Shown here piece by piece: positions 3,143-11,692 of a stretch of DNA of 54,197 nucleotides (position 1 is its first letter; every line of letters begins with the position of its first letter). Under the pieces are notes generated by a model, which was given only the letters and a program-made list of their open reading frames with translations, ran no database searches and was not told where the DNA came from. A program made the translations under genes and the position numbers. The stretch comes from Pelagibacterales bacterium SAG-MED29 (GTDB lineage: Bacteria > Pseudomonadota > Alphaproteobacteria > Pelagibacterales > Pelagibacteraceae), in assembly GCA_014653815.1 (NCBI GenBank), contig JACWDZ010000005.1, positions 1 to 54,197 on the forward strand, read 5' to 3'.

Positions 3143-4189
3143 ATGTCCAAAATTGTAATAATAGGTGCTGGTGCTATGGGCTCTGCTTTCACTTTCCCTT
3201 GTTTAGACAACCAACATGATACAACTATTGTTGGTACTCATTTAGAAAATGAATTTATCGATAATTTAAAGAATAATAAGAATTTACACCCCGCTCTTGG
3301 AGTTCATATTCCAGAAGGTGTTAAACTTTTAAAATTTGATAAATTTGCTGAATTATTTAAATCAAATGTTGATTTGATAGTTCTTGGAATTAGTTCAAAA
3401 GGAATTGAATGGGTTTCAGAACAACTAAGCAAAATTGCTAAAGATAAAAAATTACCAAATATTTTAATGTTAACTAAGGGTTTAAGTGTTCATGAAGATA
3501 AATATGAATTATTAGTCGATAAAATAAAAAGACTACTTATATTAAAAGGGATAACGAATCTTAACATTTCAGTAGTAGGCGGACCTTGCTTAGCAGCTGG
3601 TTTAGCCAATAGAATTCATAGCAGTGTAATTATAGCGAATGAAGATATTAAAATAGCTAAAAAAATTGCTGACATGATAAATACTAATTATTATCACACG
3701 TCGTCCTCCGATGATCTTAATGGAGTTGAAGTATCGGCTGCTATAAAAAATATTTTTTCCATGGCTGTAGGAGCTGCAAAAGGGATGAGTAGCAAAAACG
3801 CTTCAAATGAAATTCGAGAAAAAAATTATTTAAACACAGCTTCAGCTTTAATTAAACAATCAGTATATGAGATGGAAATATTCGTTGAGCACCTTAAAGG
3901 AAAAAAAGAAACAGTTAAGGGTTTAGCAGGTCTAGGTGATTTATATGTAAGCTCAGGAGGAGGAAGAAATGCTAAAATGGGATCTTATATTGGAGAAGGA
4001 TTGACATTTTCTGAAGCAAAAAAAACGAAAATGGAAAAAGTAACTGTTGAAGGTGCAGATTTAGCACAAGAAATTGGAAAAAAAGTAAATGAAGATTTTG
4101 ATGAAAAAAAATTGCCTTTAATGTTAGCCATGATTAATACAATAGTAGATAATAAAAAACTTGAACTTAACTGGGAAGCCTTTAGGTAA
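3143..4189 (+). CDS. gpsA: NAD(P)-dependent glycerol-3-phosphate dehydrogenase, GpsA type
   Basis: This 348-residue soluble enzyme interconverts glycerol-3-phosphate and dihydroxyacetone phosphate. The N-terminal Rossmann motif GAGAMG is at residues 8-13. The conserved catalytic lysine sits in the AAIKNIFSMAVGAAKG segment (about K202), and LAGLGDLYVSS followed by GGGRNAKMG matches the family's substrate loop. The gene overlaps glpK by one base (TAATG). The usual GpsA role is biosynthetic, making glycerol-3-phosphate for phospholipids. The position directly before glycerol kinase and a glycerol importer suggests it could also run in the oxidative direction. That catabolic role is inference. 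Confidence 0.88.
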   Translation: MSKIVIIGAGAMGSAFTFPCLDNQHDTTIVGTHLENEFIDNLKNNKNLHPALGVHIPEGVKLLKFDKFAELFKSNVDLIVLGISSKGIEWVSEQLSKIAKDKKLPNILMLTKGLSVHEDKYELLVDKIKRLLILKGITNLNISVVGGPCLAAGLANRIHSSVIIANEDIKIAKKIADMINTNYYHTSSSDDLNGVEVSAAIKNIFSMAVGAAKGMSSKNASNEIREKNYLNTASALIKQSVYEMEIFVEHLKGKKETVKGLAGLGDLYVSSGGGRNAKMGSYIGEGLTFSEAKKTKMEKVTVEGADLAQEIGKKVNEDFDEKKLPLMLAMINTIVDNKKLELNWEAFR

Positions 4190-5670
4190 TGAGAAAATTT
4201 ATTATTTCTATAGATGCTGGCACAACTTCTAACAGAGCAATACTTTTTGATTTAAAAGGTAAACCAATTTTTTCATCTCAAAAAGAATTCACACAATTTT
4301 TTCCAAAAAGTGGTTGGGTAGAACATAATCCGGAAGAAATTTGGAATACTACTAAAAAAGTTTTAAAAGATGTAATTTTAAAAGCAAAAAAACTTAAAGG
4401 AAAAATATTAACTATTGGAATTACTAATCAAAGAGAGACTACAGTTCTATGGGATAAAAAAACTGGTAAAACTGTTTATAGAGCTATTGTTTGGCAAGAC
4501 AGAAGACAAGCTGATTATTGTAAAAAATTAAAAAATCAAAATAAAGAAACTCTTATTTTTAATAAAACTGGATTACCAATCGACTCATACTTTTCTGGAA
4601 CTAAAATAAAATGGATATTAGACAATGTTCCATTAGCTAAAAAATTAATGAATAAAAGACAACTTAAGTTTGGAACTATAGATAGTTTTTTAATCTGGAG
4701 ATTAACAAAAGGTAAGATGCATGCAACCGATTCTACCAATGCAAGTAGAACTATGATTTATAATATTTCTACAAATAAATGGGATGATACAATTTTAAAG
4801 ATATTAAAAATAAAAAAACATATTCTTCCTGATGTTAAAAACTGTGCTGATAACTACGGTTCAACACATCCTTCAATTACAGGCAAATCGATTCCAATTA
4901 CTGGTGTGGTTGGTGATCAACAATCTGCTGCAATAGGTCAATGTTGTTTTGAACCGGGTTCATTAAAAAGTACTTATGGAACAGGCGCATTTGTATTATT
5001 AAACACAGGCTATAAAAAAATATACTCTAAAAATAGATTGTTAACGACTATTGCTTATAGAATAAAAGGCAAAACAACTTATGCGATGGAGGGATCCATT
5101 TTTATAGCTGGAGCTGGAGTTCAATGGTTAAGAGATCGAATGAGGTTTTTTAAAAAAGCATATGAGACTGAAAAAATACTAAAATCTTTAAAAGATAATA
5201 AAGATGTTTATTTAGTTCCAGCATTTACAGGCATGGGTGCTCCATATTGGAATCAAAACTCCCGAGGTGTTTTGAGTGGATTAACAAGAGACACCGGACC
5301 AAATGAAATTGTTAGAGCTACAGTAGAGTCTGTTGCTTATCAAACTTACGATTTATTTGAAGCAATGAAACATGATGGTTTACGACCAAGGATGGTTAAA
5401 GTAGATGGAGGAATGGTTATGAATAATTGGTTCTCTCAATTTTTATCAGATATAGTAAATGTTAAAGTTTATAGACCAAAAGTTCATGAAACAACGGCTT
5501 TAGGAGCTGCTTTTATGGCTGGTCTAAAAATTGGTGCTTATAAATCTTTAAGAGATATTTCAAAAAATTGGAGTCTAGAAAAAAAATTTAAACCAAAAAT
5601 GAAAAACCATACTAGAAAATCACTTCTATTAGGCTGGTCAAAGGCAATAAAAAGAGCACTGATTAACTAA
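4189..5670 (+). CDS. glpK: Glycerol kinase
   Basis: This 493-residue FGGY-family kinase converts glycerol and ATP to glycerol-3-phosphate in the cytosol. Visible motifs are the N-terminal phosphate loop DAGTTSNRAILFD (9-21), ITNQRETTVLWD (about 81-92), the GSLKSTYGTGAF segment and the C-terminal GGMVMNNWFSQFLSD segment. Length is typical of GlpK. It follows gpsA with a one-base overlap and precedes the importer genes by about 100 bases. The set fits a glycerol uptake and activation operon. No truncation or missing motif is evident. Confidence 0.95.
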   Translation: MRKFIISIDAGTTSNRAILFDLKGKPIFSSQKEFTQFFPKSGWVEHNPEEIWNTTKKVLKDVILKAKKLKGKILTIGITNQRETTVLWDKKTGKTVYRAIVWQDRRQADYCKKLKNQNKETLIFNKTGLPIDSYFSGTKIKWILDNVPLAKKLMNKRQLKFGTIDSFLIWRLTKGKMHATDSTNASRTMIYNISTNKWDDTILKILKIKKHILPDVKNCADNYGSTHPSITGKSIPITGVVGDQQSAAIGQCCFEPGSLKSTYGTGAFVLLNTGYKKIYSKNRLLTTIAYRIKGKTTYAMEGSIFIAGAGVQWLRDRMRFFKKAYETEKILKSLKDNKDVYLVPAFTGMGAPYWNQNSRGVLSGLTRDTGPNEIVRATVESVAYQTYDLFEAMKHDGLRPRMVKVDGGMVMNNWFSQFLSDIVNVKVYRPKVHETTALGAAFMAGLKIGAYKSLRDISKNWSLEKKFKPKMKNHTRKSLLLGWSKAIKRALIN

Positions 5671-5770: not shown

Positions 5771-7486
5771 ATGTTTAAAACATTGAAAACTATAATAGCT
5801 GCTGCTGTTGCTTTCACTTTAGTTTCAACATCTGCTTATTCAGACGCAATAAGCAAATGGGCAAAAGGAGAATTTAGTCTTTCTACACTTTCTGAAAAAG
5901 AAAGAATTAAAGAACTTAAATGGTTCCAAGATGCTGCGAAGCCATTCAAAGGAATGTCTATCAAAGTATTGTCTGAAACTATTCCGACACATGAATATGA
6001 ATCAAAAGTTTTAACAAAAGCTTTTGAGGAAATTACTGGGATTAAAGTTAATCACCAGTTATTAGGTGAAGGTGATGTTGTAATGGCTGTACAAACACAA
6101 ATGCAAACTAACGTAAGTATATACGATGCTTATATCAATGACTCAGATTTGATTGGTACTCATGCTAGGATGCAACAAGCTGTTAACTTGACGAAATGGA
6201 TGGCTGGAGAAGGTAAAGATGTAACTTTACCAACTTTAGACTTAGATGATTTCATTGGTAAACAGTTTACTACAGGACCGGATGGCGATTTATATCAAAT
6301 GCCTGACCAACAATTTGCTAACCTATATTGGTTTAGAAAAGATTGGTTCGACAGACCTGAAATCAAAAAAGGTTTTAAAGCCAAATACGGATACGATTTA
6401 GGTGTGCCTTTAAATTGGTCTGCTTATGAAGATATCGCTAAATATTTTTCAGAAGATGTTAAAAATATTGACGGTGTTAGAATTTATGGTCATATGGACT
6501 ACGGTAAAAGAGCTCCTGACTTAGGTTGGAGAATGACTGACGCGTGGTTATCAATGGCTGGAGCAGGTGATGTAGGAAAACCTAATGGAATACCAGTAGA
6601 CGAATGGGGAATAAGAATGGAGAAAGGTTCTTGTAATCCGGTTGGAGCTTCAGTAACAAGAGGTGGAGCTGCTAATGGTCCTGCTGCTGTATACGCAATT
6701 AGAAAATGGGATGAATGGTTAAGAAACTATGCGCCTCCAGGTGCTGCGGCTATGGACTTCTATCAGTCTCTACCATCTCTATCTTCTGGAAACGTTGCTC
6801 AGCAAATTTTCTGGTACACAGCTTTCACAGCTTCATTAGTAGGAAAAAATCCTAACAATAAAGTTGTTGATGCTAACGGTAAGCCGTTATGGAGAATGGG
6901 TCCATCACCAAAAGGACCTTATTGGGAAGAAGGCATGAAGCTTGGATATCAAGATGCTGGATCATGGACTTTATTTAAGTCTACACCAGTTAAAAATAGA
7001 AAAGCTGCATGGTTGTACGCTCAATTCGTTGTATCAAAAACAGTAGATCTTAAGAAAAGTCACGTTGGTCTAACTATTATTAGAGATAGTTCCATCGATC
7101 ATAAATCATTTACTGAAAGAGCAGGTGATTTAGGTGGACTTGTTGAGTTCTACAGATCTAACAATAGAAATATTTGGTCACCAACAGGTATAAATGTTCC
7201 GGATTATCCGAAACTTGCACAGATCTGGTGGCAACAAATTGGAGATGTAAACTCAGGTGCGTTTACTCCACAACAAGCTATGGACCGTCTTGCAGAAGAG
7301 ATGGACTTAGTTATGTCTCGTATGGAAGCTGCTGATAAAGCTAGCAAAGCATACGGTGGATGTGGACCAAGACTTAATAAACCAAGAGAAGCTTCTTATT
7401 GGTTAAATAAAAAAGGTTCACCAAAAGCTAAACGTGATGAGAAACCTCAAGGTAAAACTGTTCCATACGCGAGAGCTTGGAAGTAA
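5771..7486 (+). CDS. glpV: ABC transporter substrate-binding protein, GlpV-like (glycerol)
   Basis: This 571-residue periplasmic binding protein is unusually long for a sugar-type binding protein, but long GlpV-type proteins are known from rhizobial glycerol transporters. A Sec signal peptide is clear: positively charged MFKTLK, a hydrophobic core, then a likely cleavage near residue 24 (TSAYSDA). The mature part begins with helical, charged sequence and is Trp- and Gly-rich. It is followed by two ABC ATPases, two permeases and a DUF2160-type small membrane protein. That matches the rhizobial GlpV/S/T/P/Q/U gene set, and the upstream glpK strengthens glycerol as substrate. Substrate is inferred from context. 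Confidence 0.82.
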   Translation: MFKTLKTIIAAAVAFTLVSTSAYSDAISKWAKGEFSLSTLSEKERIKELKWFQDAAKPFKGMSIKVLSETIPTHEYESKVLTKAFEEITGIKVNHQLLGEGDVVMAVQTQMQTNVSIYDAYINDSDLIGTHARMQQAVNLTKWMAGEGKDVTLPTLDLDDFIGKQFTTGPDGDLYQMPDQQFANLYWFRKDWFDRPEIKKGFKAKYGYDLGVPLNWSAYEDIAKYFSEDVKNIDGVRIYGHMDYGKRAPDLGWRMTDAWLSMAGAGDVGKPNGIPVDEWGIRMEKGSCNPVGASVTRGGAANGPAAVYAIRKWDEWLRNYAPPGAAAMDFYQSLPSLSSGNVAQQIFWYTAFTASLVGKNPNNKVVDANGKPLWRMGPSPKGPYWEEGMKLGYQDAGSWTLFKSTPVKNRKAAWLYAQFVVSKTVDLKKSHVGLTIIRDSSIDHKSFTERAGDLGGLVEFYRSNNRNIWSPTGINVPDYPKLAQIWWQQIGDVNSGAFTPQQAMDRLAEEMDLVMSRMEAADKASKAYGGCGPRLNKPREASYWLNKKGSPKAKRDEKPQGKTVPYARAWK

Positions 7487-7554: not shown

Positions 7555-8619
7555 ATGAGTCTAGAATTAAAAAATATAGAAAAAAAAGTTGGAATAGATA
7601 CTCATATACATCCTACAAGTCTTAAATTAGAAAAAAATACAATTAATGTGCTGTTAGGCTCCACATTAGCTGGAAAAACTACATTAATGCAAATAATGGC
7701 TGGTTTAGATAAACCAACCTCAGGTGAAATATGGTTTAATGAAAAGAATGTAACTGGAATGAAAGTTCAAAAAAGAAATTGTTCCATGGTTTACCAGCAG
7801 TTTATTAACTATCCAAATTACACAGTATATGAAAATATTGCTTCACCGTTAGTGATAACAGGAGTCAATTCTGATGAAATTAAAAAAAGAGTAGGAAAAG
7901 TTGCTGAACTCTTAAAATTGTCAACAATGCTAAATAAAAAACCTGATGAGCTATCAGGTGGCCAACAACAAAGAACAGCTTTAGCAAGAGCTTTAGTCAA
8001 AGACTCTGATTTAATTTTATTAGATGAACCTTTAGCTAATTTAGATTTTAAATTAAGAGAAGAATTAAGAGAGGAACTACCAAAATTGTTTGAAGATAGA
8101 GATTGTATAGTTGTTTATGCAACAACAGAACCATCAGATGCTTTAATGATAGGAGGCAATACAGCAACGTTATTAGAAGGTAAAGTAGTTCAATACGGAA
8201 AAACTTTAGAGGTTTACAACAAACCTGAAAACTTAATCTCTGCTAAAGTTTTTAGCGATCCACCAATGAATATCGCAGAAGTAAAAAAAAATGGAGATAC
8301 TTGCAAAGTAACTGACAACAATGTTAAGTGGAAATCATCTGCCAAAATTAAAGATGGAACTTATAAGATCGGTATAAGACCACATAATATTACTACTTAT
8401 AAAGAAGGAAATAATTCAGTTGAAATAAATGGGAAAGTACAGATTTCTGAATTAAGTGGATCAGAAAGCTTAATTCATTTCACAAATGGTAATTTAAATT
8501 GGGTTTCTTTATCGAATGGAATTCAACAAAAAAATGTTGGCGATGATACAAAATTATATATGAACACAGATGAATTTTTATATTTTGATGAAAATAACAG
8601 ACTGGTAAACAATGGCTAA
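7555..8619 (+). CDS. glpS: ABC transporter ATPase, GlpS-like
   Basis: The 354-residue ATPase belongs to the carbohydrate-type (MalK/UgpC-like) subfamily with a C-terminal regulatory domain. Walker A reads GSTLAGKTT (about 35-43). The signature LSGGQQQR is intact (about 133-140), as is Walker B LILLDEP (about 151-157). The H-loop position reads YATTEPSDAL where VTHDQ-EAL is expected, so the switch histidine is missing. The ATG at 7555 is chosen because an in-frame upstream TTG at 7522 lies inside the terminator hairpin. It overlaps glpT by 8 bases and should pair with GlpT as a heterodimer. Confidence 0.88.
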   Translation: MSLELKNIEKKVGIDTHIHPTSLKLEKNTINVLLGSTLAGKTTLMQIMAGLDKPTSGEIWFNEKNVTGMKVQKRNCSMVYQQFINYPNYTVYENIASPLVITGVNSDEIKKRVGKVAELLKLSTMLNKKPDELSGGQQQRTALARALVKDSDLILLDEPLANLDFKLREELREELPKLFEDRDCIVVYATTEPSDALMIGGNTATLLEGKVVQYGKTLEVYNKPENLISAKVFSDPPMNIAEVKKNGDTCKVTDNNVKWKSSAKIKDGTYKIGIRPHNITTYKEGNNSVEINGKVQISELSGSESLIHFTNGNLNWVSLSNGIQQKNVGDDTKLYMNTDEFLYFDENNRLVNNG

Positions 8620-9676
8620 AATTACTTTAAAAGACTTAAGCCATAGCTATTTAGAGAATCAAGATAGTAATGCTGACTGGGCTCTTAGAGAAGTTAATAT
8701 TGATTGGAAAGATGGTGGAGCATACGCGCTTTTAGGTCCATCAGGTTGTGGAAAGACAACTTTATTAAATATTGTTTCAGGTTTGTTAAAACCTACAAAA
8801 GGCAGCGTGTTGTTCGATGATAAAGATATAACAACATTTAATCCTGTTGAAAGAGATATTGCTCAAATATTTCAGTTTCCAGTTATTTATGACACTATGA
8901 CTGTTTATGACAACTTAGCATTTCCATTAAAAAATAGAGGTCTTTTAGAATCAGAAATAGCATCCAAAGTAAAAGAGATTGCTGAAATGCTTGAGCTAAC
9001 ATCAACTTTGAATAATAGAGCTTCAGGTTTAACAGCTGATGGTAAACAAAAAATTTCCTTAGGCAGAGGACTTGTTAGATCAGATGTAAATGTAATTATG
9101 TTTGATGAACCATTGACCGTTATAGATCCACATTTAAAATGGGTTTTAAGATCAAAATTAAAAGAATTACATCAAAAAATTAATCGTACGATGATTTATG
9201 TAACACACGATCAAACAGAAGCCTTAACTTTTGCTGATCAAGTTGTAGTAATGCATGAAGGACAAATTGTTCAAACTGGTACACCAGTTGAGCTTTTCGA
9301 AAAACCCAAACACACGTTTGTTGGACATTTTATCGGGTCACCTGGAATGAATATTCTTCCATGTGAAATAAAAAATGGTGAGGTTAATTTTAGTGGAAAA
9401 AAAATTCCAAGTCATAAGACTATAAAAAAATCAAACTTTAATAGAACTCAAATAGGTATAAGACCAGAGTTTATTAATTTTTCTAATAACGGAATCCCAG
9501 TTAAAATAAAAAGGGTAAGCAATACTGGAAGACATAAAATTATTGATACCGAAAGCAGTGGAGGAAATATAAAAATATTATCAAATTCTTCTACCGAAAT
9601 CCCAAGTGGAAGCGCTCATATAACTTTCAATCAAAAATATACTTATGTTTATGAAGATAATTGGATCATAGAATAA
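8612..9676 (+). CDS. glpT: ABC transporter ATPase, GlpT-like
   Basis: This is the second 354-residue ATPase of the glycerol importer. Walker A is GPSGCGKTT (about 43-51), Walker B VIMFDEP (about 161-167), and the H-loop VTHDQTEAL has its histidine. The ABC signature, however, reads LTADGKQK (about 139-146) instead of LSGGQ, so it is strongly degenerate. The C-terminal half resembles the regulatory domain of MalK-type ATPases. The last bases overlap the start of glpP (ATAATG). The defect complements that of GlpS, which argues for an obligate heterodimer and against a broken gene. The name is by gene order and is unrelated to the MFS antiporter also called GlpT. Confidence 0.88.
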   Translation: MAKITLKDLSHSYLENQDSNADWALREVNIDWKDGGAYALLGPSGCGKTTLLNIVSGLLKPTKGSVLFDDKDITTFNPVERDIAQIFQFPVIYDTMTVYDNLAFPLKNRGLLESEIASKVKEIAEMLELTSTLNNRASGLTADGKQKISLGRGLVRSDVNVIMFDEPLTVIDPHLKWVLRSKLKELHQKINRTMIYVTHDQTEALTFADQVVVMHEGQIVQTGTPVELFEKPKHTFVGHFIGSPGMNILPCEIKNGEVNFSGKKIPSHKTIKKSNFNRTQIGIRPEFINFSNNGIPVKIKRVSNTGRHKIIDTESSGGNIKILSNSSTEIPSGSAHITFNQKYTYVYEDNWIIE

Positions 9677-10542
9677 TGAATAAAACTATTAATCAAAAAG
9701 CTTGGTTTTTTGTAGTTCCTGTATTTATTCTTGTTGCATTTAATGCAGCTATTCCTTTAATGACTGTAGTTAATTACTCATTTCAAGAAACTTTTGGAAA
9801 CAATGTATTTGCATGGGAGGGTACTAGATGGTTTAAACAAATTTTATTATCAGAAAGATTCCACGCAGCACTTGGCAGACAATTTGCATTCACTTTTATT
9901 ATTCTTTTAATTCAGATTCCTTTAGGCATTGGTATTGCTTTAACTATGCCAAAAAAGGGTTGGGGAGTTCCAGTTTGTTTAATTTTAATGTCTATGCCAC
10001 TTTTAATTCCTTGGAATGTTGTTGGTGCAATGTGGAATATTTTTGCTTTACCTGACATTGGTTTTCTTGGTCATTCATTAAATGGAATGGGCTTTGATTA
10101 TAATTTTACTCAACAACCCGGAGATGCTTGGTTTACAACAATATTAATGGATGTTTGGCACTGGACTTCTTTAGTAGTACTTTTATCTTATGCAGGGCTT
10201 AATTCTATTCAGCCTGCATATTATCAAGCTGCAGAAATCGATGGAGCAAGCAGATGGGCTATCTTTAGATATATAGAACTACCTAAAATGAAAAAAGTTT
10301 TAACGTTGGCTATTTTATTGAGATTCATGGATAGTTTTATGATTTATACAGAGCCTTTTGTTTTAACCGGAGGCGGACCAGGTAATACTACAGCTTTCTT
10401 GTCGATAGACTTAGTAAAAATGGCTTTAGGACAATTTGATTTAGGTCCAGCCGCAGCAATGTCGTTAATTTATTTTTTCATTGTTCTATTAGTTTGTTGG
10501 GTATTTTATAATTTGATGATGAAAAATGAGGTGCAGTCATGA
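9676..10542 (+). CDS. glpP: ABC transporter permease, GlpP-like
   Basis: This 288-residue inner-membrane protein has about six hydrophobic helices. The binding-protein-dependent permease EAA loop appears as YYQAAEIDGASRWAIFRYIELP (about 176-197), which docks onto the ATPases. The extended N-terminal periplasmic loop and the TEPFVLTGGGPGNTT segment are typical of sugar/polyol MalF/UgpA-like permeases. The ATG at 9676 overlaps the preceding stop. A TTG start five codons earlier is less likely because translational coupling at ATAATG fits the operon. It forms the membrane pore with GlpQ. Confidence 0.9.
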   Translation: MNKTINQKAWFFVVPVFILVAFNAAIPLMTVVNYSFQETFGNNVFAWEGTRWFKQILLSERFHAALGRQFAFTFIILLIQIPLGIGIALTMPKKGWGVPVCLILMSMPLLIPWNVVGAMWNIFALPDIGFLGHSLNGMGFDYNFTQQPGDAWFTTILMDVWHWTSLVVLLSYAGLNSIQPAYYQAAEIDGASRWAIFRYIELPKMKKVLTLAILLRFMDSFMIYTEPFVLTGGGPGNTTAFLSIDLVKMALGQFDLGPAAAMSLIYFFIVLLVCWVFYNLMMKNEVQS

Positions 10543-11339
10543 AGAAATATAAGTGGTTAGTACCTACATTATATATAATTTTTTTAATGCTTCCGATTTA
10601 TTGGCTTATCAATATGTCGTTTAAGACAACTACAGAGATTATAAACACATACTCTTTGTGGCCACAGAAATTTACTACTGAAAATTATGTTAAAATTTTT
10701 ACGGATAGCACATGGTACATGGGTTATGTAAATTCGATTACTTATACCGTATTTAATACAGTTATTTCGGTTGCAGCTGCTTTACCTGCTGCTTATGCTT
10801 TCTCTAGATATAAATTTTTGGGAGACAAGCATTTATTCTTTTGGTTGTTAACTAATAGAATGGCTCCGCCCGCAGTTTTTGCGTTACCATTTTTTCAGTT
10901 TTATTCTTCTGTAAATTTATTTGATACTCACATTGCTGTTGCCTTATCACATTGCCTGTTTAATATTCCATTAGCTGTTTGGATTTTAGAAGGTTTTATG
11001 TCTGCTGTTCCAAAAGAATTAGATGAAACAGCCTATGTAGATGGATATTCATTTGGAAGATTCTTTTTCAAAATTTTTGTTCCAACAATCGCTGCAGGAA
11101 TAGGAATAACAATGTTTTTCTGTTTTATGTTTTCATGGGTTGAGTTATTGTTAGCCAAAACATTAACAGCTACAGAAGCAAAACCTATAGCAGCAACTAT
11201 GACAAGAACTGCTAGCACCTCAGGTTATGAATTAGGTTTGTTAGCTGCAGCAGGAACTTTAACAATTATACCTGGGGCAATTGTGATTTACTTTGTTAAA
11301 GATTATATTGCTAAAGGATTTGCGATGGGAAGAGTATGA
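10539..11339 (+). CDS. glpQ: ABC transporter permease, GlpQ-like
   Basis: This 266-residue MalG/UgpE-type permease has about six membrane helices. The N-terminus matches the family (LPIYWLINMSFKT near residues 18-30). The EAA loop reads ELDETAYVDGYSFGRFFFKIFVP (about 158-180). It overlaps glpP by four bases (ATGA) and the next gene by four bases, so it is tightly coupled. It is the second half of the glycerol pore. Here GlpQ means the permease of the rhizobial glycerol system, not the glycerophosphodiesterase of the same name. Confidence 0.9.
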   Translation: MKKYKWLVPTLYIIFLMLPIYWLINMSFKTTTEIINTYSLWPQKFTTENYVKIFTDSTWYMGYVNSITYTVFNTVISVAAALPAAYAFSRYKFLGDKHLFFWLLTNRMAPPAVFALPFFQFYSSVNLFDTHIAVALSHCLFNIPLAVWILEGFMSAVPKELDETAYVDGYSFGRFFFKIFVPTIAAGIGITMFFCFMFSWVELLLAKTLTATEAKPIAATMTRTASTSGYELGLLAAAGTLTIIPGAIVIYFVKDYIAKGFAMGRV

Positions 11340-11692
11340 TATTTACAAATTTACATGCAGATGCGTGGAAAAAAGTTGGAGAAACCAAAGAAAAAGGATT
11401 TTTTGATTTTGATTTATTTTCTTGGATGGCCTGGACTTGGCAAACTGCTGCTTTTTTCATTTTTATAGCATTATGTATAACCGTGATGCTTATTTGGGAA
11501 AAAAAGGTTCCAGGTGGATCTCCACGAAAAGGAATTTTAGGTTTAGACACGACAAGAGGAGACAGACTATTCATTTCACTATTAGGAAGTGCTTTCATAC
11601 ATTTATTTTGGTTAGCTCTTGTAGGAAGCATTCTATGGTTAGCAACAATTTTTTGCATTTTCTACGCCATAATTGTATTTAGATATGTTTAA
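11336..11692 (+). CDS. glpU: Small integral membrane protein, GlpU/DUF2160-like
   Basis: This 118-residue protein has two to three hydrophobic segments (about 30-52 and 78-116) and a conserved middle (PGGSPRKGILGLDTTRGDR). It resembles the DUF2160 proteins encoded with rhizobial-type glycerol ABC transporters as GlpU. It overlaps the glpQ stop (ATGA), so it belongs to the operon. Its molecular role is not known to me; an accessory membrane subunit is the simplest idea. The final Tyr-Val and short C-terminus look complete. Confidence 0.8.
   Translation: MIFTNLHADAWKKVGETKEKGFFDFDLFSWMAWTWQTAAFFIFIALCITVMLIWEKKVPGGSPRKGILGLDTTRGDRLFISLLGSAFIHLFWLALVGSILWLATIFCIFYAIIVFRYV

Follow-up and report, generated by a model that had tools for sequence, protein, structure and literature searches.

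The window analysed here, a whole contig of 54,197 nucleotides (C42) from a source genome assembly of 951 kb in 46 contigs that is 80% complete, carries on one strand a glycerol-3-phosphate (G3P) dehydrogenase, a glycerol kinase, a binding protein, the ATPases GlpS and GlpT, two permeases and a DUF2160 protein, in that order. We infer glycerol as the substrate of this importer from the adjoining glpK and G3P dehydrogenase genes.

3143..4189, + strand: NAD(P)-type glycerol-3-phosphate dehydrogenase (PF01210, PF07479)
4189..5670, + strand: glycerol kinase GlpK (TIGR01311, above cut-off)
5771..7486, + strand: solute-binding protein, GlpV by content (PF01547)
7555..8619, + strand: GlpS, MalK-type ABC ATPase, 354 aa (ABC_tran; GlcV/UgpC-like; MalK fold)
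8612..9676, + strand: GlpT, MalK-type ABC ATPase, 354 aa (open frame; profile matches; MalK fold)
9676..10542, + strand: permease, GlpP by content (PF00528, UgpA-like)
10539..11339, + strand: permease, GlpQ by content (PF00528)
11336..11692, + strand: small membrane protein DUF2160, GlpU by content (PF09928, 112.7 bits)

The GlpS frame is open from 7522, and its start was taken as the ATG at 7555; GlpT begins 8 bases before GlpS ends, and the start of GlpP is assumed to be the second Met of a frame open from 9661. The gene content is that of GlpSTPQUV: two ATPases, two permeases, a DUF2160 protein and a binding protein, with glycerol genes adjoining. The part of the Rhizobium leguminosarum VF39 report drawn on here describes GlpSTPQUV as a glycerol ABC importer with the same complement, its small membrane protein included, beside glycerol genes (PMC7912956); in the window the neighbours are glpK and the NAD(P)-type G3P dehydrogenase. 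An R. leguminosarum strain other than VF39 (L065) has the same ATPase motifs as the window. The closest named GlpT relatives among the matches listed are from uncultured Pelagibacteraceae, at 93% and 79% identity.

GlpS and GlpT are CUT1 (MalK-type) importer ATPases by descent, each predicted to have the full MalK fold. AlphaFold2 models of the single subunits, built from 28-row alignments, resemble known structures of this group over nearly their full length (GlpS: pLDDT 93.1, and against 4khz_B Z 38.8, rmsd 3.1, 352 aligned; GlpT: pLDDT 88.6, and against 2it1_B Z 38.1, rmsd 2.4, 346 aligned). Both are related in sequence to MalK, UgpC and GlcV but score under the curated thresholds of the NCBI families so named, and Pfam OB_MalK scores above its cut-off on GlpT only.

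Complementary motifs in GlpS and GlpT

Homologues came from two sources. The best 80 GlpT relatives listed, from a list built via six short peptide patterns, comprise 68 orthologues with flanks (L001-L068, at least 50% identity) and the 12 closest ordinary CUT1 ATPases (L069-L080, 34-41% identity), which serve as controls; among the matches listed, GlpT identity falls from at least 50% in the first group to at most 41% in the second. A further 100 loci, a selection from the DUF2160 matches, were anchored on that family. The window, 67 of the 68 listed orthologues and these 100 loci give 168 GlpS/GlpT pairs; L034 was excluded for a GlpS divided between two frames, hence 168 GlpS and 169 GlpT sequences. 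Three loci are repeats, so that 165 of the 168 pairs are distinct, and the 168 GlpS fall into 67 clusters at 70% identity, the lowest identity to the window's GlpS being 40%. The 67 named loci are from Alphaproteobacteria (55) and Gammaproteobacteria (12). L034 (Mesorhizobium sediminum KCTC 42205) has an intact GlpT, its divided GlpS reflecting either a sequencing error or a pseudogene. In L067, from an Arenicellales MAG, the GlpT open frame is 242 aa long though the match covers residues 1-352, which suggests a broken frame or a misassembly; this frame and that of L068, cut by a contig end, are the short GlpT frames of the sample, and the motifs are covered in both.

7588..7590, + strand: GlpS A-loop position, occupied by Val12 in place of the expected aromatic (aromatic in 2/168 GlpS)
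7603..7605, + strand: GlpS His17, possible stand-in for the A-loop aromatic (His 135, Trp 12, Tyr 10, Phe 3 of 168)
7657..7683, + strand: GlpS Walker A, GSTLAGKTT (Gly-Lys-Thr in 168/168)
7951..7974, + strand: GlpS signature LSGGQQQR, residues 133-140 (consensus; 168/168)
8116..8133, + strand: GlpS switch loop YATTEP, with Thr191 in the His column (column-wise alignment)
8735..8761, + strand: GlpT Walker A, GPSGCGKTT (consensus)
9029..9052, + strand: GlpT altered signature LTADGKQK, residues 140-147 (LSGGQ in 0/169)
9113..9127, + strand: GlpT altered D-loop, LTVID (PLTVID in 167/169; PLSNLD in 12/12 controls)
9197..9214, + strand: GlpT switch loop YVTHDQ, His199 (consensus; His in 169/169)

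The first-pass annotation had claimed that GlpS keeps the LSGGQQQR signature with Thr for the switch His (YATTEPSDAL), and that GlpT keeps the His (VTHDQTEAL) with LTADGKQK as its signature; all four readings are exact in residues and in position. By alignment GlpS Thr191 and GlpT His199 share one column, and GlpS residues 133-140 share theirs with GlpT residues 140-147. The complementary pattern holds in 168 of 168 pairs: His never appears in this column of GlpS, nor SGG in the GlpT signature, and the expectation that the two losses would go together among homologues is borne out, independent, non-co-varying motif change occurring in 0/168.

Within GlpS the switch-His column is occupied by Thr (147) or Ser (21) and never by His, while Walker A Lys-Thr, Q-loop Gln, Walker B Asp-Glu and the Gln at signature position 5 are each kept in 168/168; the D-loop reads ANLD in 131 and VNLD in 37. 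The A-loop aromatic so rare in GlpS is present in 169/169 GlpT and 12/12 controls, and an aromatic or His stands five residues further on in 160 of the 168 GlpS, where it may stack on adenine in its place. Every GlpT has the Walker A Lys. At position 4 of its signature (the second Gly of LSGGQ; Asp143 here) GlpT has Asp in 167 sequences, Glu in 1 and Ala in 1; position 5 is free (A51 G38 E26 Q24 N15 M6 L5 D3 V1; n=169), and position 6 is Lys (Lys145) in 169/169. After the Q-loop Gln all 169 have Phe-Pro; in the 12 controls the first of these two residues is Ser, Asn, Asp or Thr and the second is Tyr. The controls carry both motifs in each protein (LSGGQRQR in 11, LSSGQRQR in 1; switch His in 12), with SNLD in all 12 D-loops, whereas GlpS and GlpT carry one motif each and neither combines a consensus signature with the switch His, as a canonical homodimer would.

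The two genes also travel together. DUF2160 and GlpS (E 1e-55 or better) occur in an identical set of 85 of 398 phylum-wide genomes, the lists having been matched by eye, with one GlpS match in each of the 85 (5 best candidates scored per genome). In 167 of 168 loci, judged by frame start, GlpS precedes GlpT on a shared strand; the exception in gene order, L037, has a long open frame and a match that sits downstream within it. Among the 5 best candidates from each of the 398 genomes, there were no intermediates between GlpS and ordinary ATPases at E 1e-81 to 1e-55. The DUF2160 importer itself is patchy, found in 43/297 genomes of the order and 48/385 of the class (the class figure including weak matches). 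Weak DUF2160 relatives were considered as markers of the heterodimer and rejected: of ten such places nine were looked at (G076 being left out), and in eight of the nine a canonical CUT1 ATPase occurs singly. These eight (L278-L285) have short, weakly DUF2160-like proteins close to one canonical CUT1 ATPase; L277, also a weak match, has no CUT1 ATPase above the score limit.

Other ATPase pairs and the tree

A second asymmetric CUT1 pair was met among the control ATPases at L236 (G001:C113:80000-90000), where one ATPase is without the switch His and another has a changed signature, in an operon that also encodes a binding protein and two xylose-isomerase-like proteins. Its first subunit has 8 members above 330 bits in 385 genomes (L237-L244, L237 being the L236 gene), all of which have LSGGEQQR or ASGGEQQR, Pro in the His column ([YF]ATPD), and the A-loop aromatic. 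Partners are seen in seven of the eight loci, the other (L268) stopping at a contig edge; besides L236 these are L267 and L269-L273. The partners have L[SAG]EGEKQR in six cases and VSEGEKQR in L273, with the switch His in 7/7. A plasmid search for close relatives of the first subunit returned nothing above 42% identity.

Seven other CUT1 ATPase pairs (L231-L235, L254, L259), taken as a negative control, have L[SA][GS]GDRQR and LSGGEMQR signatures and keep His in both members, so complementary loss does not follow from the mere presence of a second ATPase gene. By eye, the neighbours of L231 resemble dihydroxyacetone kinase subunits. At L252 (G196) an ATPase with LSVNELQK adjoins one with GPPSCGKTT and LSGGERQR, His being kept in both. 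In the window's own genome 13 other ABC frames were aligned, a set that leaves out the match behind L197, one LivG-like frame and a UvrA-like frame. Signature position 4 is Gly in 13/13 of them (Asp in GlpT), and the switch column has His in 11 and Gln in 2, both LivF/UrtE-like. The same genome has two LivG/LivF-type pairs on contig C1 (L186, L190), with Gln for the switch His in the LivF/UrtE-like partners.

In a tree of 89 rows, from which the A-loop, signature, D-loop and switch columns had been removed, four groups, GlpS, GlpT and the two subunits of the second pair, each make up one side of a branch (99-100 bootstrap). Support for joining GlpS with its second-pair counterpart (94/67), and GlpT with its own (68/78), is decisive in neither case. 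A quick tree grouped GlpT with a subunit of a canonical-type pair (83), an arrangement that is not rejected (p-AU 0.423), nor is a single clade of all four asymmetric subunits (p-AU 0.209). These tests, which are not decisive, would be compatible with one origin of the asymmetry or with two.

One working ATP site and what the other may do

Which motif joins which composite site in ABC dimers is established knowledge. By that rule a single site, the one that joins the GlpS core to the GlpT signature, takes every change in signature, D-loop, switch and A-loop, so the non-consensus residues lie within one composite site and are conserved in its orthologues. This supports the interpretation in the first-pass annotation, with refinements. 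Its division into a consensus and an altered site holds in 168/168 pairs, the consensus site being complete except for one oddity, the Phe-Pro after the GlpT Q-loop Gln. The other site does lose both the signature and the switch His, and the GlpT D-loop and GlpS A-loop are changed there too. To call it degenerate is right in that it is altered and wrong if decay is meant, given core GlpS residues kept in 168/168 and altered motifs that are near-invariant. Since dN/dS is also low (0.022-0.082 by NG86 in 12 comparisons, six genomes by two genes within the window's family, with synonymous sites near saturation), the altered site is specialised and not decaying.

We propose, with a probability of roughly 0.7, that GlpS and GlpT form a single MalK-type heterodimer beneath the two permeases, as gene pairing and motif logic suggest, with one hydrolysing site and one silent one. 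Site 1, made of GlpT Walker A/B, Q-loop and H-loop with the GlpS signature and D-loop, would be complete and would hydrolyse ATP. Site 2, made of the GlpS core with the GlpT LTADxKQK signature and TVID D-loop, would keep its phosphate-binding P-loop but lack the switch His and the ordinary forms of signature and D-loop, and would most likely act as a non-hydrolysing, fixed hinge or regulatory half-site. A single hydrolysing site would in turn imply the spending of about one ATP per glycerol. In MalK the backbone of the Gly at signature position 4 meets the gamma-phosphate, and the signature Gln touches the ribose. The Asp that GlpT has at the former position therefore argues against a normal ATP sandwich at site 2. 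Each ATP site of an ABC dimer is composed of motifs from both subunits, and the conserved degenerate site of exporters is thought to keep ATP as a long-lived hinge, according to the part of an exporter review consulted here (PMC7756269). By analogy site 2 of GlpST may keep ATP in this way, or ATP there may have been given up.

The latter is taken further in a rival reading, rather unlikely in our estimate, in which site 2 handles no ATP at all: GlpS would carry ADP, another phosphate ligand or nothing, and the TADxKQK and TVID loops of GlpT would form a permanent protein clamp or sensor. The near-absence of the A-loop aromatic from GlpS points this way, the more so as mutation of the A-loop Tyr at the degenerate site of CFTR shortens ATP residence (in the same part of PMC7756269), and so do the near-invariant Asp beside a free position 5 in the GlpT signature and the D-loop altered in 167/169. 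The P-loop Lys-Thr and Walker B kept by every GlpS speak against it, as does the residue that may take over stacking on adenine. Conversely, since Walker A Lys-Thr, Q-loop Gln and Walker B Asp-Glu are kept throughout, some hydrolysis at site 2 is compatible with the sequences. That both sites hydrolyse, with GlpT Asp143/Lys145 and the GlpS Thr191 region forming a different working catalytic site, would also suit the near-invariance of the replacement motifs; it is an improbable reading given a GlpS switch column of Thr or Ser only, free variation of GlpT in the column of the ribose-contacting Gln, and Asp in place of the Gly that contacts the gamma-phosphate.

Homodimers, or partnerships with other ATPases in which the two sets of motifs never combine, are very improbable: a GlpS pair would be without both His and a GlpT pair without both signatures, and GlpS-GlpT pairing is complete across the genomes examined. 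Local decay in a streamlined, AT-rich genome, which the small assembly and the Pelagibacteraceae origin of the closest named loci listed might suggest, is scarcely credible, and decay confined to SAR11 is rejected, with the complementary motifs in 168/168 pairs, the same motifs in Rhizobiaceae, Paracoccaceae, a Marinobacter and others, and a dN/dS of 0.02-0.08.

The preferred arrangement, a consensus composite site beside a non-consensus one that is conserved, is that of TAP, CFTR and TM287/288, and according to the material consulted every human exporter with a degenerate site has an altered signature (PMC7756269). GlpST differs from these in being an importer, in keeping the Walker B Glu, in losing the canonical A-loop aromatic, and in the nature of the signature change, Gly to Asp. 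The first-pass annotation had held such asymmetry to be less well known in importers, which needs tempering: besides the two LivF/UrtE-like ATPases with Gln noted above, a degenerate site has been inferred by sequence in the fused importer ATPases RbsA and NupO of Bacillus subtilis (PMC11466899, as far as the part consulted goes). Those are Type II importers with fused domains whose second Walker A is without Lys, whereas GlpS and GlpT are encoded by two genes and keep that Lys in 168/168 and 169/169, which sets them apart from the RbsA type. The LivG/LivF type is similar in having two adjoining ATPases with Gln in the His column of one; its LivG-like partners here have LSFGQ and LSGGQ, and so have a signature mildly changed or unchanged, unlike that of GlpT.

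Degenerate sites are already known, and so are importers to which one has been assigned by sequence (PMC7756269, PMC11466899, in the parts used here). The literature searched, which leaves most subscription papers outside, yielded no MalK-type ATPases from separate genes whose complementary loss is fixed in both Alpha- and Gammaproteobacteria and recurs in another pair. Nor did it yield a structure or biochemistry of GlpST, data on direct interaction of its subunits, or a description of its ATP sites; this does not show the last to be unpublished. Tentatively, and at less than even odds, GlpST and the second pair may together represent a so far unrecognised group of MalK-type importers powered by one ATP site. 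In this reading the other half-site, with its signature Gly replaced by Asp or Glu and its switch His by Thr, Ser or Pro, would have become a clamp or sensor poor in nucleotide, and each molecule of a small, cheap substrate would cost one ATP.

The exporter review, in the portion consulted, regards it as unclear why so many ABC transporters retain a site that does not hydrolyse ATP (PMC7756269). GlpST makes a clean importer model for this question of why an apparently idle second site persists: with a small soluble substrate, separate ATPase genes and ordinary CUT1 ATPases for contrast, ATP cost, directionality and the roles of the half-sites would be open to direct measurement. If one ATP were indeed saved per glycerol, this would bear on the carbon economy of streamlined ocean bacteria.
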